Shown: piece by piece, positions 3,539-36,975 of the stretch
Layout: the number at the start of each line of letters is the position of its first letter
How positions within the stretch are numbered: the stretch's first letter is position 1
NCBI GenBank assembly: GCA_903896925.1
Contig: CAITZM010000018.1
Location: 1-64,000 of the forward strand
Direction: 5' to 3'
Origin: an uncultured Lentisphaerota bacterium
Lineage (GTDB): Bacteria > Verrucomicrobiota > Kiritimatiellia > CAIQIC01
Length of the DNA stretch: 64,000 nucleotides
The notes under the pieces: model-generated
What the model saw: only the letters and a program-made list of their open reading frames with translations
Database searches by the model: none
Told to the model about the DNA's origin: nothing
Position numbers and translations under genes: made by a program

Positions 3539-4846
3539 TCACTCCGGCTTCCACCACGCGTCCAGCTTGCGCTTCAGCGCGGCGACGGTTTCCGCCTGCT
3601 GTGCGGCAAGGTCGGTCTGCTCGTGCGGGTCGGCGGCGAGGTCATACAGCTCGGCCTCGCCCTTGCCGTGCGGCACGATCAGCTTCCGGTGCCCGTCGAT
3701 GAGCCAGCGCTGCTCCAGGTTTTTGATCGGGCTGTTCAAATCCACCGCCGTGTGGACAAAGCATTCGCCGTAGATCGTCTTGCGTTTGGCGACGGCTTCG
3801 GCATCCAGCAGGTTGAGCCCCTGCATCGCGGGCGTGGGCTGCTCGCCGACCGCCGCGAGCACCGTGGGCACGAGGTCTATGGACATCGCCAACTCGTCGC
3901 TCATCTGCGGCTTGATCCTGCCCGGCCAGCGCACCATGAGCGGCGTGCGCAGCCCGGAGTCGTAGGGTGAGAGCTTGGAGCGCAAATGCCGCGGTGTGCT
4001 GGGCGCCTGGACCCAGCCGTTGTCGGTCACGTAGATGACGAGGGTGTTTTCCGCGAGGCCTTCCCTCTCGAGATGGTCGAGCACCTGTCCGCAGGTCTCG
4101 TCGAACCAGTCCACCATCGCCCAATACTTGGCGACGAAGAGCGAGTCGGTCTTGCCCTTGTACTTTTCGAGGATGCGGTCCGGCGGCGTGTGCGGGTCAT
4201 GCGGCATCATCGGCGCGTACCAGACGAACCACGGCTTCTGCTCCTTGCGGGCGGAAGCGATGAAGTCGTAGATCGGCTGCAGCGTCTTGCGCCCGATGTC
4301 GAGGCCCTCATCGCCGTGGCGCTGGCCCTTGGTCATGCCGTGCGTGAAACCGCCGCTCGAAAAATGCCCCTGCCACCACTTGCCGGTCTGGAGGCTCATA
4401 TAGCCCTGCCTGGCCAGCAGGCGCGGCAGCGTCGCCGCCGCCTCCATGTGCTTCGTCATCACCGCGCGGCCGGCGGTAAACGCGGCCTGGTCCTGCGGCG
4501 TCCGCTTCTTGCCCGGCGGCGGGCCCGGGGGATCGTTGCACGTGATCAGGTTCTGGTGCGGATAGAGGCCGGTGACGATCGCCGCGAGGCTCGGGCAGCA
4601 AAGCGACGACGGCACATAGCCGCGCCGGAAGGTCAGCGACTGCGCCGCGAGCTTGTCGAGGTTCGGTGTCTTGACCTGCGGGTGGCCCATGAAGCCGTAA
4701 TCGGTCCAGCCTTGGTCATCGGAGATGATAAAGAGGATATTGGGCTTGGGTTTGTCCGCGGCCCCGGCATCCAACGCAGTCCCCAGTACCACGCCAGCCG
4801 TAACCAGCCCGGCCCGCTTCAAGAAATCACGCCGCCCGATGTTCAT
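3539..4846 (-). CDS. Sulfatase-family protein with altered active site
   Basis: This 435-residue exported protein has a Tat-type leader (MNIGRRDFLKRAG) and a type I sulfatase fold (NILFIISDDQG metal-binding start; VTDNGW near the C-terminal metal site). The canonical CxPxR motif, whose Cys becomes formylglycine, reads C83-C-P-S-L87, with CTC where CGC would encode Arg. The usual GKWH motif reads GKWWQG (155-160), so a second catalytic residue is also changed. The ATG at 4846 overlaps the TGA of the upstream sulfatase (ATGA), indicating translational coupling; an in-frame extension to 5071 lies inside that gene and is rejected. It is the last gene of a five-sulfatase run. Two coordinated replacements in an otherwise intact frame suggest a divergent subfamily rather than decay. 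Confidence 0.9.
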   Translation of the reverse strand: MNIGRRDFLKRAGLVTAGVVLGTALDAGAADKPKPNILFIISDDQGWTDYGFMGHPQVKTPNLDKLAAQSLTFRRGYVPSSLCCPSLAAIVTGLYPHQNLITCNDPPGPPPGKKRTPQDQAAFTAGRAVMTKHMEAAATLPRLLARQGYMSLQTGKWWQGHFSSGGFTHGMTKGQRHGDEGLDIGRKTLQPIYDFIASARKEQKPWFVWYAPMMPHDPHTPPDRILEKYKGKTDSLFVAKYWAMVDWFDETCGQVLDHLEREGLAENTLVIYVTDNGWVQAPSTPRHLRSKLSPYDSGLRTPLMVRWPGRIKPQMSDELAMSIDLVPTVLAAVGEQPTPAMQGLNLLDAEAVAKRKTIYGECFVHTAVDLNSPIKNLEQRWLIDGHRKLIVPHGKGEAELYDLAADPHEQTDLAAQQAETVAALKRKLDAWWKPE

Positions 4847-6357
4847 GGCCGCCCCTTCGCTTTGGACTTTGCGGCTTTGTTCTGCTGTTTGGCGCCGGCG
4901 ACAGCGGCGTTCATGCCTTTGCGCCATTCCCAGATCTGCTGCCACTCGGCGTCGGTCGCCGTGAACGGATGGAACCGGCTGGAGTCCACCGCTTGGTAGA
5001 GCACGCGATATTTCTCCGCATCGAACGCCGGGTTCGGCCGGTTGCTCTGCGTGTTGTTCGCCTTGCGCCACACGTCGAGCGCGGCGCGCATTTTGGCCAC
5101 ACGCTCCGGTTGCTGGGCGGCGAGGTCGCGCGTCTCGCCGACGTCATCTGCGAGGTTATAAAGCTCGGCCTTTTCCTCATCGTAGAACTCGACCATCATC
5201 CACGGACCGTCGCGCAGCGCGCCGCTCGGGCGGCCGCCCTGGTTGTTGTAGTGCGGGAAGTGCCAGCAGAACTGGCGTTGCGGGAACGTGCCCATGCCGG
5301 TCAGGCCGGCGGCGAAGCTGACGCCATCGAGGCCGGTCGGCGCGGGCTGGCCGGCGAGTTCCAACAAGGTCGGGATCCAATCGGTGTTGAGCACCGGTTC
5401 CGCGGTGACCTTGCCCGCGGGCACATGGCCCGGCCAACGCACGATCAGCGGGATGCGCAGGCCGCCTTCGTAGACGTAGCCTTTGCCCGCGCGGAACGGC
5501 GTGTTGTGCGTGATACGTGCGTGCGTCAGTTCCGGTACGTGCAAGCCGCCGTTGTCGGAGGTGAAGATGAAGATCGTGTGCTCCGCTAGCTTCAACGACT
5601 CCAACTTCGCCATCAGTTTCCCGACGGTGTCATCGAGCGTCTCGATCACGCCGGCATAGACCGGCTCGAAGGCGCCGTTGTTGTTGGCGATGCGTTCCTT
5701 CTGCGCGTCGTAGGGGATGTGCGGCGTATTGTGCGCCAGATAGGCGAAGAACGGCTGCTCGCGATGGGCTTCCATGAACTGCATCACCGCGGCCGTCAGA
5801 TCATATTCGCCCTTGCCGCCCTCGGTCGCCGAAGGCTGCGTGTTCGCCTGGCCGGGATGATAGGAATCGAAGCCGTGCTCCAACGGGCCGAAACCTTTGT
5901 TGCCCACATGCCACTTGCCGAACGCGCCGCAGGCATAACCCGCCGGCTTGAAGTAACGCGGCAGCATCTTCTCCGTCAGCGGCACCTGCATCTCGATCTC
6001 CGGGTGCAACACCTTTTGCGCCGCGCAGTCGGGCCGGCCGGGCAGATAGGTGGTCAGATGCAAACGCGCCGGATTTTTCCCGGTGAGCAGCGCCGCACGC
6101 GAGGGCGAGCAGATCGGCTGCCCGCAGTACGCGGAGGTGAACCGCGTCCCCTGCCCCGCCAGCTTGTCGAGATTCGGCGTGTGGTGATCCTGCCTGCCGT
6201 AGCAGTGGAGGTCGTTCACGCCAAGGTCGTCGCAGAGGATGAATACCACATTGGGCGGACGAGCCGCGGTTTCCGCCCAAGCGGGACCAACCAAGGCCAC
6301 GCAAATGGCGACCCATCCGACCAATCCCAACCAACTTCGCCGCGCTTTCGTTGCCAT
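4843..6357 (-). CDS. Arylsulfatase A-like sulfatase
   Basis: This 504-residue exported type I sulfatase hydrolyses sulfate esters, probably on an extracellular glycan. The start at 6357 has AGGAG upstream and gives a Sec signal peptide (WLGLVGWVAICVALVGPAWA). It has the metal-site motif FILCDDLGVND, the formylglycine motif C83-S-P-S-R87 followed by AALLTG, then FGKWHVG and TSDNGG. Unlike most sulfatases here it lacks a twin-arginine leader. The tail is lysine-rich (GAKQQNKAAKSKAKGRP), as in two other sulfatases of the window. It overlaps the following gene by ATGA and follows the preceding one by 38 nt. The family is certain; the substrate is unknown. Confidence 0.95.
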   Translation of the reverse strand: MATKARRSWLGLVGWVAICVALVGPAWAETAARPPNVVFILCDDLGVNDLHCYGRQDHHTPNLDKLAGQGTRFTSAYCGQPICSPSRAALLTGKNPARLHLTTYLPGRPDCAAQKVLHPEIEMQVPLTEKMLPRYFKPAGYACGAFGKWHVGNKGFGPLEHGFDSYHPGQANTQPSATEGGKGEYDLTAAVMQFMEAHREQPFFAYLAHNTPHIPYDAQKERIANNNGAFEPVYAGVIETLDDTVGKLMAKLESLKLAEHTIFIFTSDNGGLHVPELTHARITHNTPFRAGKGYVYEGGLRIPLIVRWPGHVPAGKVTAEPVLNTDWIPTLLELAGQPAPTGLDGVSFAAGLTGMGTFPQRQFCWHFPHYNNQGGRPSGALRDGPWMMVEFYDEEKAELYNLADDVGETRDLAAQQPERVAKMRAALDVWRKANNTQSNRPNPAFDAEKYRVLYQAVDSSRFHPFTATDAEWQQIWEWRKGMNAAVAGAKQQNKAAKSKAKGRP

Positions 6358-6395: not shown

Positions 6396-7952
6396 TCACT
6401 CGTGATAACCCTTGCGCTTGCGCTCGATGACGAACCCGCGCGTCTTTTCAAACAACGCCATCTCGCCGGTGCCGCGCGGGTCCTGCGTCGCCCGCTGATA
6501 GGCTTCCAACCGCGCGCGCAGCTTCTCTTTCACGGCCGCGAACTCGGGTTTGTCAGCAAGATTGTTGAGTTCAAAGGGATCGGCGACGCAGTCATAGAGT
6601 TCCTCGCGCGGCCGCGGGCCCTGGACGAGCGGAACGAACCGCTTGACCGCCGGGTGTTCGGGATGCGCGGCCAGCAGCGCGGACACGTCATAGGTCGTCG
6701 CGTTTTTCTCGAAGTCGCTGTCGGGCTGCGGTCCCTTGGCACTCAACGCGAAGCGCGGGCCGGCGCCGTAGTTGACGATGTACTGGAAGCGCTCGTCGCG
6801 GATCATGCGCGAAGACTGGTTGCACGGCGGCAGTTCGCCATGCCACTCCAAGCCCGCCGCCGTAAAGTCGCGCGCGGCATCCACGCGGCCGGACGCGGCG
6901 GAGAGCAGCACGTTGAGCGCGCTGCGTCCGCTCATCTCGCGCGGCACGGGAACACCTGCCGCCTCGAGGATGGTCGGGGCGAAGTCGGCAAAGTTGATGA
7001 AGTCATCCACCTTGCGCCCGGCCTGGACACGGGCCGGCCACATCATCGCCAGCGGCATACGCACGCCCCAGTCGTAGACGTTGGCCTTGGCGCGCGGCGC
7101 GGGCGTGCCGTTGTCGGCCGTCACGATCACGAGCGTGTTCGCCAACTCGCCGCGCTCCTCCAGCACCTTGAGCAGCGCGCCGAGCGTGCCGTCGGCATGC
7201 CGGACCTCCCAGAGATAGTTCGTGCGGTGACGCCGCACGCCCGGCGTGTCCGGCAGGAAACCCGGCACCTTGATGGCGGCGGGGTCCATGCCCGGCTGCT
7301 TGTAGTTGTCCTTGCCGTGCGGATGGTGCGGTTCCAGCAGCCCCGCCCAGAAGTAGAACGGCTGCCCCTTGGGCCGCACGTCGAGGAACTTTGCAAAGTT
7401 GGTGGCGTAGTCGAAAGCGCTGACGCCCTCCGGCGGCGACTTGATCTTGGCGGCATTAAACACGTTCCCCGCCGGGTTACGCTTGCGGCCGGACTCCGGC
7501 AGCAGGCCCGGCCCCCACCCTTTGCCCGTGTAGCCCGCGTGATAACCGGCGGCCTCCAGCAGGTCCGGCAGCACGGGGAATTTCGCCGGCAGCCACGCCT
7601 GGATGAACGCACCCTGCTCCAGCTCCCAGAAATTGCGGCCGGTCAGCAGCGCGGCGCGCGAGGGCGCACACGACGGCGCGGAACAGTAGGCGTAATTGAA
7701 CAGCACACCGTCGCGCGCCACACGGTCGAAGTGCGGCGTAGGGACCGACGCATTGCCGTACGCGCTGCACTCCAGCCAGCTTTGGTCATCGTTGATCACC
7801 AGCAGGATGTTGGGCCTGCCCTGCGCGGATTTTACCGGGGCTTGGACGGCGGGATCGGCGGTTTTTCCAGGTTCTGGAAAAGCCAGCGTCGCGCCGGCTG
7901 CGCCGAGGCCGGCCAGCTTCAGGAAATCACGCCGGGCCAGTTTCGTTCTCAT
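6396..7952 (-). CDS. Sulfatase (heparan N-sulfatase-like)
   Basis: This 518-residue Tat-exported sulfatase has the leader MRTKLARRDFLKLAG, metal-binding LLVINDDQSW, formylglycine motif C95-A-P-S-R99 followed by AALLTG, and a GYTGKGWGPG segment. The last resembles the N-sulfoglucosamine sulfohydrolase-type branch more than arylsulfatase A. The C-terminal part keeps TADNGTP. A perfect palindrome (7863-7881) encodes FPEPGK immediately after the hydrophobic leader core. It sits 14 nt after the upstream sulfatase and 38 nt before the next. Activity on N- or O-sulfated sugars is possible; specificity cannot be read from the sequence. Confidence 0.93.
   Translation of the reverse strand: MRTKLARRDFLKLAGLGAAGATLAFPEPGKTADPAVQAPVKSAQGRPNILLVINDDQSWLECSAYGNASVPTPHFDRVARDGVLFNYAYCSAPSCAPSRAALLTGRNFWELEQGAFIQAWLPAKFPVLPDLLEAAGYHAGYTGKGWGPGLLPESGRKRNPAGNVFNAAKIKSPPEGVSAFDYATNFAKFLDVRPKGQPFYFWAGLLEPHHPHGKDNYKQPGMDPAAIKVPGFLPDTPGVRRHRTNYLWEVRHADGTLGALLKVLEERGELANTLVIVTADNGTPAPRAKANVYDWGVRMPLAMMWPARVQAGRKVDDFINFADFAPTILEAAGVPVPREMSGRSALNVLLSAASGRVDAARDFTAAGLEWHGELPPCNQSSRMIRDERFQYIVNYGAGPRFALSAKGPQPDSDFEKNATTYDVSALLAAHPEHPAVKRFVPLVQGPRPREELYDCVADPFELNNLADKPEFAAVKEKLRARLEAYQRATQDPRGTGEMALFEKTRGFVIERKRKGYHE
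7863..7881. repeat. TTCC-GGAA palindrome inside a signal peptide
   Basis: A perfect inverted repeat with 8-bp arms TTTTCCAG and CTGGAAAA around GTT. It is in frame in the sulfatase leader and is read on the coding strand as part of FPEPGK. It belongs to the same family as the elements at 12503, 20638, 28969, 37079, 40979, 45336, 54498 and 57598. Confidence 0.75.
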
Positions 7953-7966
7953 ATGCAGGTTCTATA

Positions 7967-10009
7967 TCAGGGCGCGTTGCCGCTGTAAATCCTCACGGAC
8001 TCGATCAGGCCGCTGAAATGCGGCTGCGCTTTGCCCAGCACCTGGCTGCCGAGGTCGGTGCCGATCTGCAGGATGTCGTGCGGCGGCTGCGTGATGCCCT
8101 CGCGCAGCGTGGACTCGGCCTTGTCGTCGCCGGCGGCGAGCGTGATGCGCCCCGCGACCCAGCGCGCGGTGACGGTGACCCACTCGCCGGTGACCTTTTG
8201 CTTCAGCGCGACGCGGCTCGCGGTGTGGTTGGCGACGACCGTGAACACCAGCCGACCGCCGTCGAGCGAGAGGCAGTAGCCGTTGGTCTCGCCGCCGTGC
8301 GCAAGCAGGATGCCCTCGGGCGCGTCACTCTTGAAGGCAACTTCCACCGTCCAAGCGGCCACGCCGGGATTCAGGCTGTCGGACTTGGCGACGCTGATGC
8401 TGCCCGCGCCAGCGAAGCGCCGCGCCTTGTGGCCCGCGCGCCCCTCGGCAAGCGGCACGCCCTTGGCCGTGCCGTGATTCTTGAGGCTGGATGCATCCAC
8501 AACCTTGTCGCCTTCGTCGTGGTCGAAGCGGTAGTCGAGCACCCACGCGCGGAGCGGCTTGCTGTGTTCCGGCTTTTCCTTCTCTTTGGCCTGCCCAGGC
8601 TGGTCGGCGTAGTCCGGCACGCGGAAAGCAATCGCCGCCAGCTGCTTCTCGTACTCGGCCTCGAGCTGCTTGCGCAGTTCGGCCGCTTCCGGCTTGGCCC
8701 ACAGGTTGTTCATTTCGAACGGATCGGCGGCAAGGTCGAACAGCTCGGTCCACTCGGCGTGGCCGGGATAGCGCACCAGCTTGGCCGTATCGGTCCGCAC
8801 GGCGGTGATGAACGGCGTGCCAAAGCCGCGCTCGTAGAAATAGGCATAAAAGAACGCCTTGCGCCAGTCGGCGCCGGCCTGCTGTTCCACCAGCGGCCGC
8901 CAGCTGCGGCCGTGCATCGCCGGCGGCACCGCCACGCCCGCGAGGTCGAGGAACGTCGGCGCCAGGTCCACGTTCAGCACCATGCGATCCAAGGTCTGCC
9001 CGCCGCGCACACGCCGCGGATAGCGCAACAGCATCGGGATGCGCAGGCTCTCGTCGTAGGCCGACCGCTTGTCGCCGAGCCGGTGTTCGCCGAGGTAGTA
9101 GCCGTTGTCGCCCGCGAAGACGACCACCGTGTCCTCCGCCAGGCCGAGTTCGTCGAGCGTCTTGAGCAGCCGTCCCAGGTTGTCGTCGGCGGCGGTCACG
9201 CAGCGGAAGTACCCTAGGTTGACCTTGACCGCGCCATCGGTGTCCGTGGTCGCCACGGCTTTCTTCGCCGGTTTGGAGGCGTCGTGATAGATCGCCGTCG
9301 TGGCGAGGTTCGGCACCGGCCGCGCGGTTTCGCCTTCGTAGTCCTGCTCGCGGCGCGCCGGCGGCGTGAACGGCCCGTGTGTGGCCTTGAAACCCACGCA
9401 CAGCAGGAACGGCTTGTCCTTGTTCCTCTTCAGAAAATCGATGGCGTAGTCGGTGCCGACATCGTCCACCCAGCCGGTGCTCGGCTTCGTCTCGCCGTTG
9501 ACCACGATCGGACAGTCGAAATACTTGCCCTGCCCGAGGAAGCTGGCGGCGAAGTCGAAGCCCGGCCGCTCCACCTGCGAACCCATGTGCCACTTGCCAA
9601 CATAGCCCGTCACATAGCCCGCGGCGCGCAGCTGCGAGGCGTGCGTCACGTTCGTCAGCGGAAAGGGCGTGTGGTTGTTGGTGACGCCATTGACGTGGCC
9701 GTAGCAGCCCGTGAGGAACGTCGCGCGGCTCGGAGCGCACAGCGAGTTCACGACGAACGCATTGCGGAAGCGGACGCCTTCCGCCGCGATGCGGTCCATG
9801 TTCGGCGTCTTGAGCCACGGGAACCGCGCCTTGTCACCCTGCTCCTTCTGGACGCAGCTCATGATGTCCCAGCGCTGGTCATCGGTGTAGACGAAGAGGA
9901 AGTTCGGCCGCCGCCCCTCGCCCGCGCGCGCCAGCGACGGCACCGCCACCGCCGCCACACCCAGCGCAGCCCGCTTCAGGAAATCGCGTCGTTGCATGGT
10001 TGCTTTCAT
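7967..10009 (-). CDS. Sulfatase with C-terminal LamG-like domain
   Basis: This 680-residue Tat-exported enzyme starts at 10009 (MKATMQRRDFLKRAAL), where the ATG overlaps the TGA of the upstream sulfatase (ATGA). The sulfatase domain (about 35-500) has FVYTDDQRW, the formylglycine motif C91-A-P-S-R95, VGKWHMG and GDNGYY, and resembles iduronate-2-sulfatase or choline-sulfatase-like branches. After a Lys/Glu linker, residues from about 505 form a concanavalin-like LamG/laminin-G-type domain (VLDYRFDHDEGDKVVD ... GLIESVRIYSG), a likely carbohydrate-binding or spacer module. The open frame extends upstream to 10294, but that part is inside the neighbouring gene. It is the longest sulfatase of the window because of the added module. 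Confidence 0.93.
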   Translation of the reverse strand: MKATMQRRDFLKRAALGVAAVAVPSLARAGEGRRPNFLFVYTDDQRWDIMSCVQKEQGDKARFPWLKTPNMDRIAAEGVRFRNAFVVNSLCAPSRATFLTGCYGHVNGVTNNHTPFPLTNVTHASQLRAAGYVTGYVGKWHMGSQVERPGFDFAASFLGQGKYFDCPIVVNGETKPSTGWVDDVGTDYAIDFLKRNKDKPFLLCVGFKATHGPFTPPARREQDYEGETARPVPNLATTAIYHDASKPAKKAVATTDTDGAVKVNLGYFRCVTAADDNLGRLLKTLDELGLAEDTVVVFAGDNGYYLGEHRLGDKRSAYDESLRIPMLLRYPRRVRGGQTLDRMVLNVDLAPTFLDLAGVAVPPAMHGRSWRPLVEQQAGADWRKAFFYAYFYERGFGTPFITAVRTDTAKLVRYPGHAEWTELFDLAADPFEMNNLWAKPEAAELRKQLEAEYEKQLAAIAFRVPDYADQPGQAKEKEKPEHSKPLRAWVLDYRFDHDEGDKVVDASSLKNHGTAKGVPLAEGRAGHKARRFAGAGSISVAKSDSLNPGVAAWTVEVAFKSDAPEGILLAHGGETNGYCLSLDGGRLVFTVVANHTASRVALKQKVTGEWVTVTARWVAGRITLAAGDDKAESTLREGITQPPHDILQIGTDLGSQVLGKAQPHFSGLIESVRIYSGNAP

Positions 10010-11508
10010 TTCGTCCCTTTTTTCTGCACGGCCGGATACGGACACCCGGCGCTCAGTTTCTTTCCATCGGAAAAACCTTCGGGCCGGCCGGCCAGCCGCT
10101 GCACGAGGCGCTGCCGCCACGGCTCCACCGCGGCCGTCCTGGCGAGATCGCGTTCCTCGCGCGGGTCCTGCTCGAGGTCGAACAGTTGCTCGGCGCCATC
10201 CTCCGGCCTCCAGATGTATTTGAAGCGCCCGTCCGTGAGCGCATGAAACGCCTGGGCCTTGCTGTAGCAGGGCGCATGCTCGAAGTGCAGCCACGCGCGC
10301 GCCACGCCCGCTTCGCCGCGCAGCACCGGTCCCAGATTGAGGCCATCGACGCCCTGCGGGATCTTGACATGCGCCAGCGCCAGCAGCGTCGGCAGGAGGT
10401 CTTCCAGGCAGACCGGCTGGCCGTTGCGTCCGCCAGCTTTGATACCCAGCGCGGGCGATCCGGTGATGATGAACGGGATGTTGGCGGAGCCCTCATAGGG
10501 CTCGCATTTGCGGAAGTAGCCGTGATCGCCCAGCAGCTCGCCGTGATCGGAAGTGACCACAATGACCCACGCCCTACCGGCCTGCTCGCTGCGCGCCTTG
10601 AACTCGGCGACCAGCGGGCCGACCTGCTCATCCAGGTGCTCGATCAAGCCGAAGTACCCGGCCTGTGCGCGGCGCAGTGTCTCGCCTTCCAGCAGCACAC
10701 GATGCCCGCCCTTGTCGCCCGCCTGTGTGAGCGCCGCCCAATTCACCCAGTCGCCATGCGCGGGCGGCGGCAGCGTTTTCTTCAGGTAGGACTCGAAATA
10801 TTTCGTCGGCGGGAACAGCGGCGGATGCGGCGCGTAGAACGATGTCGTCAGGAAGAGCGGCTGACCGGCCGGCGTCGCCGCCACCACCTGCCGGGACTGC
10901 TGAACGATCCACGCGGTGGGATGCCACTCCTCGGCATACGGCCACGGCGCGGCGGGCCACAGGTTGCAATTCAACTGCAACTGGCCGATCACCTTCCGGA
11001 TACCGCCGGATTCGGGTACGGCCTTCTTCAGGGCATTGTCGTAATCGTCGTCGCCGACATAGGTCGAGCCCAGGATCTGCTTCTGGTAACCGCAGGTGCC
11101 GCTCTTCGGACCCTGGTGCATGTTGCGGCCGACCAGAATCGTCGCGTAGCCGGCTTCGGCCAGCGCGCACGGCAGCGTCGGCGTCGTGATCGGCGGCGCG
11201 GCAAAGCCTACCGACCCGCTGGTCTGCGGCGCCAGTCCGGTCAGCAGCGCGAAGCGCGCCGGGATGCACGAGGGCACGGTGGCATAGGCGCGCCGGAACA
11301 GCATCCCCTGCTGCGCGAGCGCGTCGAACTGCGGCGTGCGGATGACCGGATGCGAGAGCGACGAAAGACAATCACCCCGCATCTGGTCCGGCATGAGCAG
11401 CAGGATGTCCGGCTGCGCCGCGGCGCCCGCGGCCGCCGGCAGCCACGCCACCGCCGCAGCACCGAGCCCGGCCTGACGCAAGAAATCCCGCCGTGATGTC
11501 GCCCGCAT
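10006..11508 (-). CDS. Sulfatase, first gene of a five-sulfatase run
   Basis: This 500-residue Tat-exported sulfatase (MRATSRRDFLRQAGLG) has metal-site ILLLMPDQMRGD, formylglycine motif C81-I-P-A-R85 and the segment VGRNMHQGP in place of GKWHxG, followed by TSDHGELLGDHG. The DQMR and DHGE features are typical of the choline-sulfatase/phosphonate-monoester-hydrolase-like branch. It is followed by the next sulfatase with an ATGA overlap. The 216-bp gap upstream holds a candidate promoter at 11565-11573. The in-frame extension to 11562 lacks any leader feature and is rejected. Confidence 0.93.
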   Translation of the reverse strand: MRATSRRDFLRQAGLGAAAVAWLPAAAGAAAQPDILLLMPDQMRGDCLSSLSHPVIRTPQFDALAQQGMLFRRAYATVPSCIPARFALLTGLAPQTSGSVGFAAPPITTPTLPCALAEAGYATILVGRNMHQGPKSGTCGYQKQILGSTYVGDDDYDNALKKAVPESGGIRKVIGQLQLNCNLWPAAPWPYAEEWHPTAWIVQQSRQVVAATPAGQPLFLTTSFYAPHPPLFPPTKYFESYLKKTLPPPAHGDWVNWAALTQAGDKGGHRVLLEGETLRRAQAGYFGLIEHLDEQVGPLVAEFKARSEQAGRAWVIVVTSDHGELLGDHGYFRKCEPYEGSANIPFIITGSPALGIKAGGRNGQPVCLEDLLPTLLALAHVKIPQGVDGLNLGPVLRGEAGVARAWLHFEHAPCYSKAQAFHALTDGRFKYIWRPEDGAEQLFDLEQDPREERDLARTAAVEPWRQRLVQRLAGRPEGFSDGKKLSAGCPYPAVQKKGTK

Positions 11509-11564
11509 AGAATGAATCCCGAAGCCACAACGCCGCTCCCTAACCCAACGGCCAGCCCGCACAG

Positions 11565-29235: not shown

Positions 29236-32200
29236 TCACCGGACGATGGCTTCCTCGCGCAGGCGGAAATCGGGCGTCAGGATCTGGCACTGCGCGACCT
29301 GCCCGAGGTCGGTGCCGGTGATTTTCCAGACGACACGCTTGTCCGGCGTCAGCTCGAAGATGTGCGCACCAATTTTGTCGCCGTTGTCGCGCGTGTTCCA
29401 GTTGCAGACGATGGTGTTGCCGTTGGGCAGCCTCTGCAGGCCGGCGGGCGTACCGAACTGGATCGCCGGCAGCCATTCCCCATCCACGCGCCAGACGATC
29501 TTGTTTTCGGCGTCATATTCGGTGACCGCGCCGCCGGCGGAGATCAGCGTATTGCCGTTGGGCAGGCGCAGTGCCACGATGGGGCCGGGCTCGCGCGGAA
29601 ACTCGCGAAGCAATTTGCCGGTGGCGTCGAACTCGCGCACGGCGCCCTCGGCGGTGAACGGCACGAGGTAGGTGCCCGCCGGCGTCTTGCGGCACATGCG
29701 GAACTGCGCATGCGGCTTCTGCTCCGTCGTCGCAAGCCGCACCTCGTGGACGATCGCGCCCTGGCGGTTCACCTCGATCAGGCGGCACTCGCCGACGATG
29801 CCGATCAGCACGTTGCCATCGGGCAGCGGCTGGCAGCAGGGAATCTCGTTCGGCTTTTCGGTTTTGTACTCCCACACGATTTGTTTGTCGCGTGTGACTT
29901 CGCGGACGCCTTGATAGTACGTGGTCAGGATGTTGCCGTTGGGCAGCAGCCACGCGTCCTGCGGGTGCGGCACGGAGTAGTCCCAAACCACTGTGCCGCG
30001 CTCATCGAGCAGCGCAACGCGATTGTGCGCGTGCTCGGTGATCAGGCAGGCGTAGGGGCCGCGCAGGTTCTCGTGCCAGAAGTTGCGCGCGAGCTGCGGC
30101 GCGGTGGTCTCGGTGCCGAGCGGATTGCGCGGGTCCACGTCAAGCACGGGCCAGACGAGTTCGCCGCGCAGCTGCGCCGCTTCGTCCTCGTAGGCGCCGA
30201 GGCGGAGCGAGTTGGAGTCGAGCCAGAGATTCACCGTACGCCGGTCGCTTTCCGAAACCGTCTTGAGATGCGCGGCGTTGGTGAGCGCGTTGCCAAGCTT
30301 GCAATAGTTCGCGCCGAACCGGCCGGGGATCGTGCGCGAGCCGCCGTGGATGCCGCTGTAGTCGCTGACCATGCCGCCGCTCATCGCGCCGGAGAACCAA
30401 AAGACGTCGTTGCGCAGCGCGGCGTAGCTCATGTCCTGCGGGCCCTTGTGCTCGCGCGTGTGGCAGGGCAGGCAGGCTTTTTCGAAGATGGGCTTGATCT
30501 GCCGGTAGTAGCTGACCGGCTCGATGCGGCCGAGCTCGGGCTGCAGCTTGGAGGGCGCGCGCCGCATCGCCAGCGGCGGCTTGGCGAGCTGCGGCGAGCG
30601 CTGCGTGGGCTCGTGGCAGCCCTGGCAACTCAGCTGTTCGCCGGGATGCACGAAGGCGACCGCGCGCATGGATTGCACCGCGCGAAAGTTTTCGTCGAGC
30701 ACCTGGAAGATGAGTTCCTTCGCCACCGGCGCCTCGAAGTAGGCGCTGCCATCGGCCTCCACCGGCACGATGCCCAGCGGGATGCGCGGCGTATTCTCGC
30801 GCTCGAAGCCGATCATCGGCTGGCCCATCTGGTGGTTTTCCTTGAGGATGTTCTGCGTAACACGCAGCCATTTGATCTTGGTGCCCGGAGGGAACGGCAG
30901 GTCGGAATCGTAGACGTTCATCACGGCAATGGTCGCGGGTTTCTTGCCGGTCGCGGCCGCGCCCTGCACGGTGCGCGGCGGTATGGCGGTGGGCACCGGG
31001 CGCGCGCGCAGCGGTATGGGCTGGATGAGGCGCAGGCGTTCGTCCTGCGCGCACGGCAGCAGCGCGTGCTCCGCGAACAGCTCCTTGTTGCCGAACCGGT
31101 CGAGCAGCACGAGGTTTTCCCACGCGTTGCAGAGCATGAAGTCCGCGGAGAGCGGCCAGGGCGTGCCGTATTTGTAGTGCCGCCGCGACGGCATCTCGGT
31201 CTCTGGGAACGGCTCGTCCGGCGTGAAACGCTTCACCTGCGCCATGTGACCATCGTCCGGCACGTTCAAATCGAGCAGGCCGATGGAGCCAAACCACTCG
31301 CCGTGATGCGGCGCGGCCGTGAAGGCGTAACGCGGCGAACCCGGAATCGCCCGCAAGCCCATCTCGACCAGAGGCGTGCCGTGACGGCTGTCCTTCCCCC
31401 CACCCTGCCACGGCTCGAAGCCGGTGAAGGTGTGGTAGGGCTTCGGATAGTTGCCGTGCGGCGAGCGCGGATCGGTGCCGTCCGGCCCGGAGATCCAGAA
31501 GCGCGTGCCAATGCAGTTCTCGCGGTCGGTATAGTCCCAGCGCGTGTAGACCAGCTGGCCCGCGTGGTTGACGCTCGGGTTCCACTCGGTGGTCTCGAAG
31601 TAGCTCAACGGCACGATGTCGGTGCCATCGCCCTTCATGGAAAACAACGTGTGGTTGCGCACCGCCAGCCCGCTGAAGCAGCGGATGTAGCCGCCGCGCC
31701 GCTCGGAGACGAACGCGATGCGGCCGTCCGGCAGCCAGCAGGGGCCGAAGTCGTCCGTATCACCCTCGGTCAGCTGGGTCAGCCCCGTACCATCCACGTT
31801 GACCTTGAACAGATGAAAGACGGTGTTCTCCGCAAACACCCACTTGTGCTCGCGGTTGGCCGTCCAAGCGAAGACGATCTGTCGACCATCAAACGAAAGG
31901 TCCGGCGTGGCGAAGGCGCCGTGATCGAGTTTCTGCCCCTTGAGCCGGCCGTTCTGTACGACCGAGTTGGCGACGATGTTGATAAACTGCGGCGCGTTTT
32001 TGAAATCCTTGACCGCGTAGAGGCCGCCGCCGGGCAACGCGTTGAAGCCGTAGAACTGCGTTGCGAAATGGCCGCCCTGCACATCCGCCGTCGAGGGATT
32101 GGAGCGTGCCGAGCCTTCGAAGCAGCCGCGTGCCACGCATAGCAACTGGTCGAAATTCAGCAGCGGATTTTGCAGCGCGAGGTGGCGGCGCAGAGTGCAG

Positions 32201-33399
32201 ACGGCGAGATAGGCGGCGATATCGTCCGCTGACCCCGGCGTGGTGTTCGCTGCCGTCACGCGGGTTTTCAGCGCGGCATAGTCGCTCGCCAGCGGCGCGA
32301 AATCCACGGCTGGATTTTCCTTCGTCAACCAGGCCAGCAATGCGCCTGTCCGCCGCAGCGCCGTGCCGAGCGGGCCGCCGTCCTCCGGCCAGATCAGCGC
32401 CTGTTTGTCATAGGCCTGCGCGGTGACCTGTTCTTTGTTGGCACCGGACACCGGACGCGACAGCGGATATTCCAGCTGACCGGGCGCGAGCGGATCGGCG
32501 CGCCAGTTTTCATACTCGGTCAGCCAATAGCGCAGCACGCCGTCGCGCGGCGCCACCGCCGGAACCGCCTTCAGACCGGCCGCAGCGATAAACGCCGCCA
32601 GCGCGCGCCGCTCGGCGCTCACATCCTTCGCCGGCGGCATGGGCAGGAACGCGGCCGACATCGTGCCCGGCATCGAGGAGGGCCAGATGCCGGTTGCTTT
32701 CGACGCCGCTGACGCCGTGTGCAGCACCATCTCGCCGTGCTGGCCGGAGAGATCGGCAACTTTTCTATCGCGCGCTTGCGCGAAATTCCACAAGCCGATG
32801 GTGGCGTCGTCGGCCTCCGGCGCAGTAGCTGTCAGCGCCTGGATGTCGCGCGCCACCTTGGAAATGCGCACCCACAGGATTTCGCCGTCGCTATCCAGCC
32901 CCTTGCCATCCAGCGCGCCGATGACCAGCGGCCCGGCCGCGCGCTGCCCGCCGTGCCGGACAAGCGCGCGTTCCCCCGCGAGTGCACCATCCACAAAGAT
33001 CCGGCCGCGTTGCTCTTCCAGTACCAGCGCAAAGTGATGCCACTTGCCGTCGGCCAGCTTCAACTGCGTCGGCAGCGTGTTGGGCTGGTAGCCCGGCACA
33101 TAGGCGTGCAGCAGCCCGCTCTTGGGCAGGGTGAACAGCTCCCAGTGACCGCAGGAATTTTTTGGCTCATAGGAAAACAGGATATTGTACGCGGCCCGGC
33201 TGTTCATCCGCGCGTAGCACTCCACGGTCAGCGGCCGCTGGCCGTAGAGCGGATTCGCGGCCACCAGGGCGCTCTGTTGCGGCGTCACCAGACCCACCGC
33301 GTTCGTCAGCGCCACCGCGTGAAGCTGCAGGGACAGCACACCCCACGCCGCCGCCAGGATAAACTGTTCACGCATGGACTTGTTCATCGCACGGTTCAT
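29236..33399 (-). CDS. LamG / HzsA-like propeller / di-haem c / PQQ-like propeller protein
   Basis: This exported protein of about 1390 residues contains, in order: a signal peptide (QFILAAAWGVLSLQLHAVA), a LamG domain (about 30-190), a TolB/PD40-like propeller (DLSFDGRQIVFAW, WLPDGRIAFVSERRGGYIRC) with similarity to the hydrazine-synthase alpha-subunit-like (HzsA) family, two haem c motifs CQGCH and CLPCH (about residues 925 and 975), and a C-terminal PQQ-like propeller with LPNGNxL repeats. Haem attachment implies a periplasmic location and a redox or binding role. Such proteins are abundant in PVC genomes and need not make hydrazine. The start is uncertain: ATGs at 33399, 33387 and 33375 lack a clear ribosome site. 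Confidence 0.8.
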   Translation of the reverse strand: MNRAMNKSMREQFILAAAWGVLSLQLHAVALTNAVGLVTPQQSALVAANPLYGQRPLTVECYARMNSRAAYNILFSYEPKNSCGHWELFTLPKSGLLHAYVPGYQPNTLPTQLKLADGKWHHFALVLEEQRGRIFVDGALAGERALVRHGGQRAAGPLVIGALDGKGLDSDGEILWVRISKVARDIQALTATAPEADDATIGLWNFAQARDRKVADLSGQHGEMVLHTASAASKATGIWPSSMPGTMSAAFLPMPPAKDVSAERRALAAFIAAAGLKAVPAVAPRDGVLRYWLTEYENWRADPLAPGQLEYPLSRPVSGANKEQVTAQAYDKQALIWPEDGGPLGTALRRTGALLAWLTKENPAVDFAPLASDYAALKTRVTAANTTPGSADDIAAYLAVCTLRRHLALQNPLLNFDQLLCVARGCFEGSARSNPSTADVQGGHFATQFYGFNALPGGGLYAVKDFKNAPQFINIVANSVVQNGRLKGQKLDHGAFATPDLSFDGRQIVFAWTANREHKWVFAENTVFHLFKVNVDGTGLTQLTEGDTDDFGPCWLPDGRIAFVSERRGGYIRCFSGLAVRNHTLFSMKGDGTDIVPLSYFETTEWNPSVNHAGQLVYTRWDYTDRENCIGTRFWISGPDGTDPRSPHGNYPKPYHTFTGFEPWQGGGKDSRHGTPLVEMGLRAIPGSPRYAFTAAPHHGEWFGSIGLLDLNVPDDGHMAQVKRFTPDEPFPETEMPSRRHYKYGTPWPLSADFMLCNAWENLVLLDRFGNKELFAEHALLPCAQDERLRLIQPIPLRARPVPTAIPPRTVQGAAATGKKPATIAVMNVYDSDLPFPPGTKIKWLRVTQNILKENHQMGQPMIGFERENTPRIPLGIVPVEADGSAYFEAPVAKELIFQVLDENFRAVQSMRAVAFVHPGEQLSCQGCHEPTQRSPQLAKPPLAMRRAPSKLQPELGRIEPVSYYRQIKPIFEKACLPCHTREHKGPQDMSYAALRNDVFWFSGAMSGGMVSDYSGIHGGSRTIPGRFGANYCKLGNALTNAAHLKTVSESDRRTVNLWLDSNSLRLGAYEDEAAQLRGELVWPVLDVDPRNPLGTETTAPQLARNFWHENLRGPYACLITEHAHNRVALLDERGTVVWDYSVPHPQDAWLLPNGNILTTYYQGVREVTRDKQIVWEYKTEKPNEIPCCQPLPDGNVLIGIVGECRLIEVNRQGAIVHEVRLATTEQKPHAQFRMCRKTPAGTYLVPFTAEGAVREFDATGKLLREFPREPGPIVALRLPNGNTLISAGGAVTEYDAENKIVWRVDGEWLPAIQFGTPAGLQRLPNGNTIVCNWNTRDNGDKIGAHIFELTPDKRVVWKITGTDLGQVAQCQILTPDFRLREEAIVR

Positions 33400-33683
33400 C
33401 GCATGTTCGGGATTTGCTCGTCGAGCCAAAATCCGGCCATCCGACGGTGGCGTAACGCTGACTCACGACCCAATCCAGCCGACGATGCGCACCCCTCGAC
33501 TTGTGCGGGCAGGGAGAAATGCCTCTGCTTACCGCACCAAAAAACCGGCCTCAAAAAACCCCGCCCGTTCGTCGAAGCAGCGGCCGGCGGCCCTCAGCGG
33601 CAAACGTCCGATACCTCGGATACCGAGGTATCGGGGCCATCCGTCGCACGCACGGGCAAAGCCCGGGTTGGCGGTGGCTGCTC

Positions 33684-35256: not shown

Positions 35257-36975
35257 TTACTCTCTCACAATCTTGACGCCGTCCGGAGCTTGGATGTCGC
35301 TCTTGACGCTGCCATCGGCCTGCCGTTCGTGGCGTACCCGGATCACGCCCAGCGGCGTCGGGAAACTGCCTTCCGCCCATGGCAAGTCGCCGAGGTAGGG
35401 CTTCACGCGCACGGTCTTGCAGCCCACCTCGACCGGCTGGATGCCGAGCACGTGCGCAATCAGCCATGCGGCCGGACCGGACGACCAGCCATGGCAGAGG
35501 CTGTGGCGGAAGCCTTTGTAGCAGAACTCGCCGTAATCGCCATGAATGTCCTTCTTGCCCGCCACCGGCAGTTCGTCGATGCGAAACGCGTTGTTGGTCC
35601 ACGCCACGTTGAAGTCCTCCCAGAAGCTGGTGGCCCCCATGTCGAGCATCCCGCCCCAGTAGTCGCGCACCGTATCGATGCCGCGCTGCACAGCGCCCGC
35701 CTTGGCCATGGCCTCCAGCATGTAGTAACCGTAAAAGGTCGAGACGCCCTGCACGCCGTCCTTGGCCAGCACCTGCGCATCCATCTCCTTGGCCTCGCGC
35801 AGGCCCGACAGCGCCAGCAGCGCCGCCACCTGCTTGCTGCCTTCCGGAGCAGGCTTGTACTGACCCAGCCGCGCCGCGCCCGCCTTGCACCGGGCCCCCA
35901 GCTCCGCGTCGCCCAGGGCCGCGGCCAGCCGCGCACCGTCCTCGAAGGTCATCAGCATCAGCGCCTGCATGCCTGCGGCGACGGCCTTGGGGTTGTGCTG
36001 CGTGGGCCAGTCTAGAAAGCCGCCCATCGTGCACCGGTTGTCGGGACCGATGTACTTCACCAGGTTGGCAAACACGGCTTTAAGATAGGCGTGCTGCGCC
36101 TTGAGGTAGTCCAGATCGCCGGTGTAGCGGTACCAGTCGTGCTGACACCGGATCCACCACAGCGTGTACGCCGGCATGGTGTTCATCCATTTCGCAGGCG
36201 GCGTCGTTTCACGCATGTAATCGAGCGAGGTGGTCAGCACGTCCTGCTTGCCGAACACGGCCATCAGGGACGACACCTCCGGATGCATGTCGCCCATCCA
36301 CACCAGCCGGTCGCGCTTGATGCCATCCCAGAGGTAGTCCTGACAGCAGAGGTGCAGCGTGCGGGCGGCCGTCGCCCACACCCGGTTCAACCGTTCGTCG
36401 CTGCTCTTGAACGAACCGAGCTGCTGCATCGGGCGCATCAGCGAGACGGCGCGGATCGATTCCAGGCTCAGCACGCCTTTCGAGACCAGATCGATGCGCG
36501 CGAAACGGAAACCCGAGTTGCCGATCTCGCGCATGCCGAGCCACGGCAGATCGATCACGCCGTCGCGGATGGCATGATCGTTGCACGCGCCGCGCTCGCC
36601 GAGTTCGGCCATGGCCTCGGCCACCGACTCGCCGAAGCGCACGCGCACCTTCACATCCCTGCCGCTGGGGCCGCCGGAGGCGAGCTGCACGCCGCCGTGC
36701 AGTTCGCGCCCGAAATCGACCAGCACCGACGCGGGTGCGCCTTTGTTTTCCAGGCGGCAACCGGAGCCTGCCAGAAAGAGGCCTTCCGGCACCTGGCCGT
36801 GTTTCTCCTTGAGCAATAGGTCCGCGTTGGCCACCGTCGACTGGCCGCTCTGCTCCGAGCACCAGACGACGCGGGTCGGCATGACCAACGTCCGCACCCG
36901 CGGGTCGGTTTGATCCACCGCGCTGGCCCCCACCCCCGTCAGCACCGCCACCGCCATCAAACAAAGCGTCTTCAT
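35257..36975 (-). CDS. GH78-type alpha-L-rhamnosidase
   Basis: This 572-residue secreted enzyme (signal MKTLCLMAVAVLTGVGASA) releases alpha-L-rhamnose. A beta-sandwich region (about 80-185) is followed by the (alpha/alpha)6 catalytic domain. The segment QDYLWDGIKRDRLVWMGDM (212-230) matches the GH78 region carrying the catalytic Glu/Asp residues, and WMNTMPAYTLWWIRCQHD, GATSFWEDF and the C-terminal beta-sandwich (VKPYLGDLPWAEGSFPTPLG) complete the pattern. It is shorter than many GH78 enzymes because extra N-terminal modules are absent. The upstream GAGAGGG is a likely ribosome site. It is probably co-transcribed with the URO-D gene 15 nt downstream. This is the best pointer to a rhamnose-containing substrate. 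Confidence 0.87.
   Translation of the reverse strand: MKTLCLMAVAVLTGVGASAVDQTDPRVRTLVMPTRVVWCSEQSGQSTVANADLLLKEKHGQVPEGLFLAGSGCRLENKGAPASVLVDFGRELHGGVQLASGGPSGRDVKVRVRFGESVAEAMAELGERGACNDHAIRDGVIDLPWLGMREIGNSGFRFARIDLVSKGVLSLESIRAVSLMRPMQQLGSFKSSDERLNRVWATAARTLHLCCQDYLWDGIKRDRLVWMGDMHPEVSSLMAVFGKQDVLTTSLDYMRETTPPAKWMNTMPAYTLWWIRCQHDWYRYTGDLDYLKAQHAYLKAVFANLVKYIGPDNRCTMGGFLDWPTQHNPKAVAAGMQALMLMTFEDGARLAAALGDAELGARCKAGAARLGQYKPAPEGSKQVAALLALSGLREAKEMDAQVLAKDGVQGVSTFYGYYMLEAMAKAGAVQRGIDTVRDYWGGMLDMGATSFWEDFNVAWTNNAFRIDELPVAGKKDIHGDYGEFCYKGFRHSLCHGWSSGPAAWLIAHVLGIQPVEVGCKTVRVKPYLGDLPWAEGSFPTPLGVIRVRHERQADGSVKSDIQAPDGVKIVRE

Follow-up and report, generated by a model that had tools for sequence, protein, structure and literature searches.

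Sulfatases, and the formation of formylglycine in them, are by convention recognised from the motif CxPxR, which is used for genome annotation, for the SulfAtlas patterns and for aldehyde-tag design. The Arg of this PROSITE-type signature is 99% conserved in S1 sulfatases. In AtsA, Arg55 stabilises the formylglycine, and His115, the His of the GKWH motif, is the base that releases the sulfo-enzyme (PMC5066984). Among the 4058 sulfatases surveyed by Barbeyron et al. 2016, 11 lack the motif Arg; in nine of these, which come from Lentisphaerae and Planctomycetes, Leu or Ile takes its place, and the authors suggested that they may be inactive (PMC5066984).

The protein described here is encoded in a stretch of 64,000 nucleotides from an uncultured Lentisphaerota bacterium (the window). 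Among solved structures, carrageenan sulfatases of S1_19 and S1_16 come closest to it. Both motifs are altered, but the same alterations are strongly conserved among its many relatives, so that we probably have before us not a broken copy but a functional, if unusual, enzyme acting on sulfated sugars of the seaweed type.

The protein and its active site

The gene lies on the minus strand at positions 3539 to 4846, from the ATG at 4846-4844 to the TGA at 3541-3539, and codes for 435 amino acids. Pfam Sulfatase (PF00884) matches residues 35-334 with an E value of 1.4e-52, the AlphaFold2 model has a mean pLDDT of 94.0 and a pTM of 0.93, and Foldseek matches S1_19 and S1_16 sulfatases with E values of about 1e-30. 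Fold and descent place the protein among the S1 formylglycine sulfatases. A putative Tat-like export signal, recognised by eye, is encoded at 4754-4846 (minus strand; MNIGRRDFLKRAGLVTAGVVLGTALDAGAAD), the N-terminus reading MNIGRRDFLKRAG.

At the CxPxR site (4586-4600, minus strand), codons 83-87 are TGC TGC CCG AGC CTC, which give C83-C-P-S-L87 within the stretch SSLCCPSLAAIVTG, with Leu (CTC) where Arg is expected. The GKWH site (4373-4384, minus strand) reads G155-K-W-W158 within the stretch LQTGKWWQGHF. The initial annotation had reported both replacements, and had regarded the gene as otherwise intact; the codons and the uninterrupted 435-residue ORF bear this out. It had also described an ATGA overlap with a normal sulfatase, which is indeed present at 4846-4843. 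The upstream neighbour concerned (4843-6357, minus strand; Pfam Sulfatase, 2.3e-53) is a canonical S1 sulfatase with CSPSR and GKWH. Variation of the second motif is common in the window locus: the next sulfatase (6396-7952, minus strand) combines CAPSR with GKGW, and another one (10006-11562, minus strand) has GRNMH and likewise keeps the first-motif Arg.

We compared 58 subfamily relatives with 52 ordinary sulfatases, the latter mostly from the same genomes. The metal ligands D43 and D44 (4715-4720, minus strand) and D275 and N276 are each present in 58/58 relatives, and so are K156, H216 (4199-4201, minus strand) and K291 (3974-3976, minus strand), the active-site equivalents of AtsA Lys113, His211 and Lys375. 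The nucleophile C83 is invariant in the same relatives (58/58) and in 30/30 members read from the motif-blind search described below; the Cys/Ser of the (C/S)x(P/A)xR pattern is retained and its Arg is absent. Position 87 is Leu in 58/58 relatives, as opposed to 51 Arg and one Lys among the 52 controls, and position 158 is Trp in 58/58, as opposed to His in 39/52 controls. Erosion of the catalytic residues is not observed, as two positions are changed, each to one fixed residue, and the rest are invariant. The emphasis that had been placed on the His to Trp exchange is too strong, although the exchange itself is real, since this His is often missing: it is absent from 13/52 ordinary sulfatases of our set, and His115 was 81% conserved in an alignment of 4058 sequences (PMC5066984). 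Of the two replacements, the loss of the Arg is the rare one.

The subfamily has in addition gained a series of invariant or nearly invariant residues that are not shared with the 52 controls, namely Q153, R176, H177 (56/58), G178, D179 and I184, followed by G185, R186, W209, W278, R380 and W381. Its hallmarks are RHGD, IGR and DNGW. The first two lie in the subfamily-specific block R176-H-G-D-E-G-L-D-I-G-R186 (4289-4321, minus strand), in which R176, G178 and R186 are found in 58/58 aligned relatives and H177 in 56/58, and all four in 30/30 motif-blind members. The third, D275-N-G-W278 (4013-4024, minus strand; 58/58), joins two metal ligands to a Trp at a position that is usually Gly. Two alignments disagree on where R176 falls against ordinary sulfatases. 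Ser150 of human arylsulfatase A, considered as a counterpart of R176, was abandoned because the two alignments conflict at this place.

Family extent, descent and selection

A degenerate DNA pattern for QTGKWW was found at 15 places in 13 of the 289 genomes of the phylum. Three of these places (L035, L036 and L042) lie outside any sulfatase ORF and were discarded; the other 12 are inside sulfatase ORFs, all of which contain CxPSL. A scan of genome contigs gave at least 585 candidate stretches and at least 572 confirmed relatives, the best 80 of which belong nearly all to Planctomycetota, Verrucomicrobiota and Lentisphaerota (MAGs as well as isolates), with one MAG labelled Acidobacteria. As both searches relied on GKWW or a neighbouring motif, the 289 genomes were searched again with a profile of the whole family, blind to the motif. 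Members scored at least 380 bits and ordinary sulfatases up to about 207 bits; the sole intermediate score, 213 bits, comes from G278, where the profile partially matches the part of the divergent member L037 that follows its GKWW motif. This search places the family in 24/289 genomes. In the members read from it, Cys83, Leu87, Lys156, Trp158, Arg176, His177, Gly178, Arg186, His216, Asp275, Asn276, Trp278 and Lys291 were each found in 30/30.

Leu87 and Trp158 occur together in 58/58 aligned relatives, in 6/6 divergent or gammaproteobacterial relatives and in 30/30 motif-blind members, much more often than chance would give. Two further members, located on alteromonad plasmids, have identities of 51% and 48%, and across the family both replacements are fixed at identities from 35% to 94%. 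No intermediate combining CxPSR with GKWW, or CxPSL with GKWH, was found among the members read, and the one apparent case, in L112, turned out to be the canonical half of a two-domain fusion. The alignment of relatives, proposed as a check in the initial annotation, shows both changes to be conserved family-wide, and the homologues with normal motifs that would have pointed to a local mutation were searched for and not found. All six Leu codons are used at position 87 across 113 distinct genes, a set that was picked for Leu and is informative for codon spread only.

Some variation was seen within the family. A subclade (L195-L198) has GKLW and RHGG instead of GKWW and RHGD and keeps Leu87, Trp158, R176 and H177. 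Three members lie in tandem at G212:C2:989458-993586, suggesting local amplification. In G224, one copy (L188, G224:C1:3993612-3994862) resembles a pseudogene, with two in-frame TAG codons; the other copies of this genome have no in-frame stops.

A tree of 114 proteins, made with a quick method and with SH-aLRT rather than bootstrap support, separates 62 CxPSL proteins from 52 ordinary sulfatases by one branch (SH-aLRT 100, stem length 1.4). Close family pairs show dN/dS values of 0.08-0.20. The family is one clade under purifying selection. Given the single clade, the low dN/dS and the six Leu codons, the joint replacement therefore arose once or very early and has been held by selection. One alternative is that an ordinary sulfatase has mutated locally or is decaying, and a single base change (CGC to CTC) would be sufficient at the Arg codon. 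This is at odds with the fixation of both replacements at 35-94% identity under purifying selection. We consider it extremely improbable, and it was ruled out by the relatives from the contig scan, the clade in the tree and the 30/30 motif-blind members.

Genomic context, maturation and likely activity

Judged from its genes, the window is a sulfated-polysaccharide locus. It codes for a GH78-type alpha-L-rhamnosidase (35257-36975, minus strand; Pfam Bac_rhamnosid6H, 1.3e-15), several sulfatases, GH141-like, GH28-like and GH32 proteins, a SASA esterase and BNR proteins. It also codes for a protein of 1397 residues (29236-33429, minus strand) with a hydrazine synthase alpha middle domain (PF18582, 7.5e-17) and Mala_s_1-like and Laminin_G_3 domains. 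On plasmid pAlt76 of Alteromonas 76-1, the member (WP_129740762.1) directly follows a GH88 and a BNR_4 protein, and rhamnosidases, sulfatases and a rhamnose mutarotase are nearby; according to its published description, this plasmid is a system for ulvan utilisation, and ulvan supports growth of the strain (PMC6431674). On a Catenovulum plasmid and in G226, which belongs to the window's own class, a GH78 rhamnosidase directly follows the gene on the same strand, and in L048:300-2927 an alpha-L-fucosidase domain (Pfam, 2.5e-81) and a CxPSL domain share one ORF. From this handful of loci, we infer that the enzyme cleaves sulfate esters of a glycan rich in deoxyhexoses (rhamnose or fucose), and that it may desulfate rhamnose- or fucose-containing oligosaccharides.

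With regard to sulfatase neighbours, the order of canonical sulfatase and CxPSL gene is repeated in the same-genus loci L046/L206 and in L047. Five planctomycete MAG proteins (L085, L106, L111, L112 and L119) are single in-frame ORFs of about 950-1030 residues, with an N-terminal CxPSL domain and a C-terminal canonical CSPTR/GKWH sulfatase. Among 53 same-strand neighbours, the sulfatase domain is the commonest (7/53) and the remainder are diverse. No conserved partner gene was found, so a fixed partner is not required.

These arrangements bear on the idea of a pseudo-enzyme, a dead sulfatase kept to bind sulfated glycans or to assist the canonical sulfatase to which it is coupled. The loss of two catalytic residues, the ATGA coupling in the window genus and the five fusions would agree with it, but the invariant Cys nucleophile, metal ligands and Lys/His/Lys set would be needless in a dead enzyme. 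The idea is also opposed by the many loci that have no neighbouring sulfatase and by L048, whose domain is fused to a fucosidase instead. We regard a pseudo-enzyme as quite unlikely. The initial annotation had offered a pseudo-enzyme, a partner protein or a subfamily with different chemistry; the subfamily is real, and different chemistry is possible for it. The invariance of all other catalytic and metal residues speaks against the pseudo-enzyme, and the many homologues that are not adjacent to a sulfatase speak against an obligate partner, even though five are fused to one.

The window genome, which is 94.75% complete, codes for one clear anaerobic sulfatase maturase of the radical-SAM type (anSME; TIGR03942, 489 bits, cut-off 349), and none of its 21 PF03781 matches contains the FGE-type double-Cys motif, which in other carriers reads GGSFLC....YC. 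Ten other carriers were examined. An anSME over the cut-off is present in G012, G213 and G226; in G066, G216, G218, G241 and G269, the GGS-LC....YC motif identifies an FGE and no anSME exceeds the cut-off; G226 has both, and G235 and G278 lack a clear FGE as well as an anSME that passes the cut-off. The 7.2 Mb genome G000 contains around 100 or more sulfatase-like loci (207 matching pieces) and a single anSME above the cut-off; an FGE double-Cys motif could not be recognised in it. Maturation of Cys83 would require that CxPSL is accepted by both kinds of maturase; without maturation, the family would be a different kind of enzyme.

The latter case would be an active enzyme of the same fold that works without formylglycine, through the thiol of Cys83 or in another reaction (phosphodiester or phosphonate cleavage, or sulfo-transfer), the loss of the recognition Arg then reflecting a loss of maturation. 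We judge this unlikely. In its favour, the lost Arg is the residue recognised by the maturase, genomes with family members may code for either maturase type or, like G278 and G235, for neither clearly, and a choline sulfatase with unmodified Cys does turn over, if slowly (PMC6189696). Nevertheless, carriers as a rule code for a maturase along with many CxPxR sulfatases, the surrounding genes point to sulfated glycans, and the metal ligands and sulfate-site Lys and His are those of sulfatases.

The most likely reading, which we favour with moderate confidence, is that of an active, formylglycine-dependent S1-type hydrolase with a rearranged active site. The protein would be an exported hydrolase of the S1 fold, from a monophyletic subfamily in which the active site has been rebuilt. 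Cys83 would be converted to formylglycine by the resident maturase (anSME in the window genome, FGE in other carriers); this maturation is suggested because the Cys is invariant while the following residue varies. The Arg at 87 and the His at 158 may have been replaced in function by Arg176, His177 or both, which would provide the charge needed to hold the diol of formylglycine and the base needed to release the sulfo-group. Sulfate esters of deoxyhexose glycans would be handled in series with glycosidases and ordinary sulfatases.

The active hydrolase is favoured by the family-wide fixation, the single clade, the dN/dS values, the invariant catalytic and metal positions, the confident fold, the maturases and the glycan context. 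On the other side, textbooks assign the Arg a role both in the motif recognised for formylglycine formation and in formylglycine stabilisation, the placement of R176 conflicts between two alignments, and rhamnosidases adjoin member genes in few loci only. The suggestion that Leu/Ile variants are possibly inactive (Barbeyron et al. 2016, PMC5066984) also counts against it. More specifically, we tentatively propose, at somewhat less than even probability, that the subfamily forms formylglycine without the recognition Arg and that the functions of Arg and His have moved to the separate RHGD loop. If this were true, the CxPxR rule for sulfatase annotation and formylglycine prediction would not be general.

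Comparison with known systems

The subfamily shares its fold, metal ligands, Cys position, sulfate-site Lys/His/Lys and SGSH_C-type C-terminal domain with the solved S1_16 (9fo1) and S1_19 (PsS1_19B, 6psm/6prm) sulfatases, at about 26-29% identity. In contrast to these, it has Leu for the CxPxR Arg, Trp for the GKWH His, and the extra invariant RHGD, IGR and DNGW motifs. Phosphonate monoester hydrolases, formylglycine enzymes of the same superfamily, likewise have another residue for the GKWH His; the motif Arg is retained in them, whereas the subfamily has lost it. No close similarity of the window protein to them was found, HdlasePehA scoring far below its cut-off.

In the open-licence PMC literature, we found no paper that treats the Leu/Ile variants as a clade, links them to GKWW or assays one of them; matches to the motif strings came from unrelated papers only. 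The odd Arg position is already known (PMC5066984). As far as could be checked in this literature, it is new that the variants form a conserved clade, that a second replacement is coupled to the first and that an invariant block has been gained, and the argument for activity is new as well. A widespread and conserved CxPxL clade would widen the range of FGE/anSME targets, or represent sulfatase catalysis with relocated residues or other hydrolase chemistry on the same fold. Like the nine variants of Barbeyron et al. 2016, some of which are probably members of the present subfamily, its proteins come from the same phyla and replace the motif Arg, by Leu here and by Leu or Ile there. However, those were treated as nine isolated exceptions, whereas the present proteins form a large clade that has invariant residues of its own and in which a second replacement accompanies the first.
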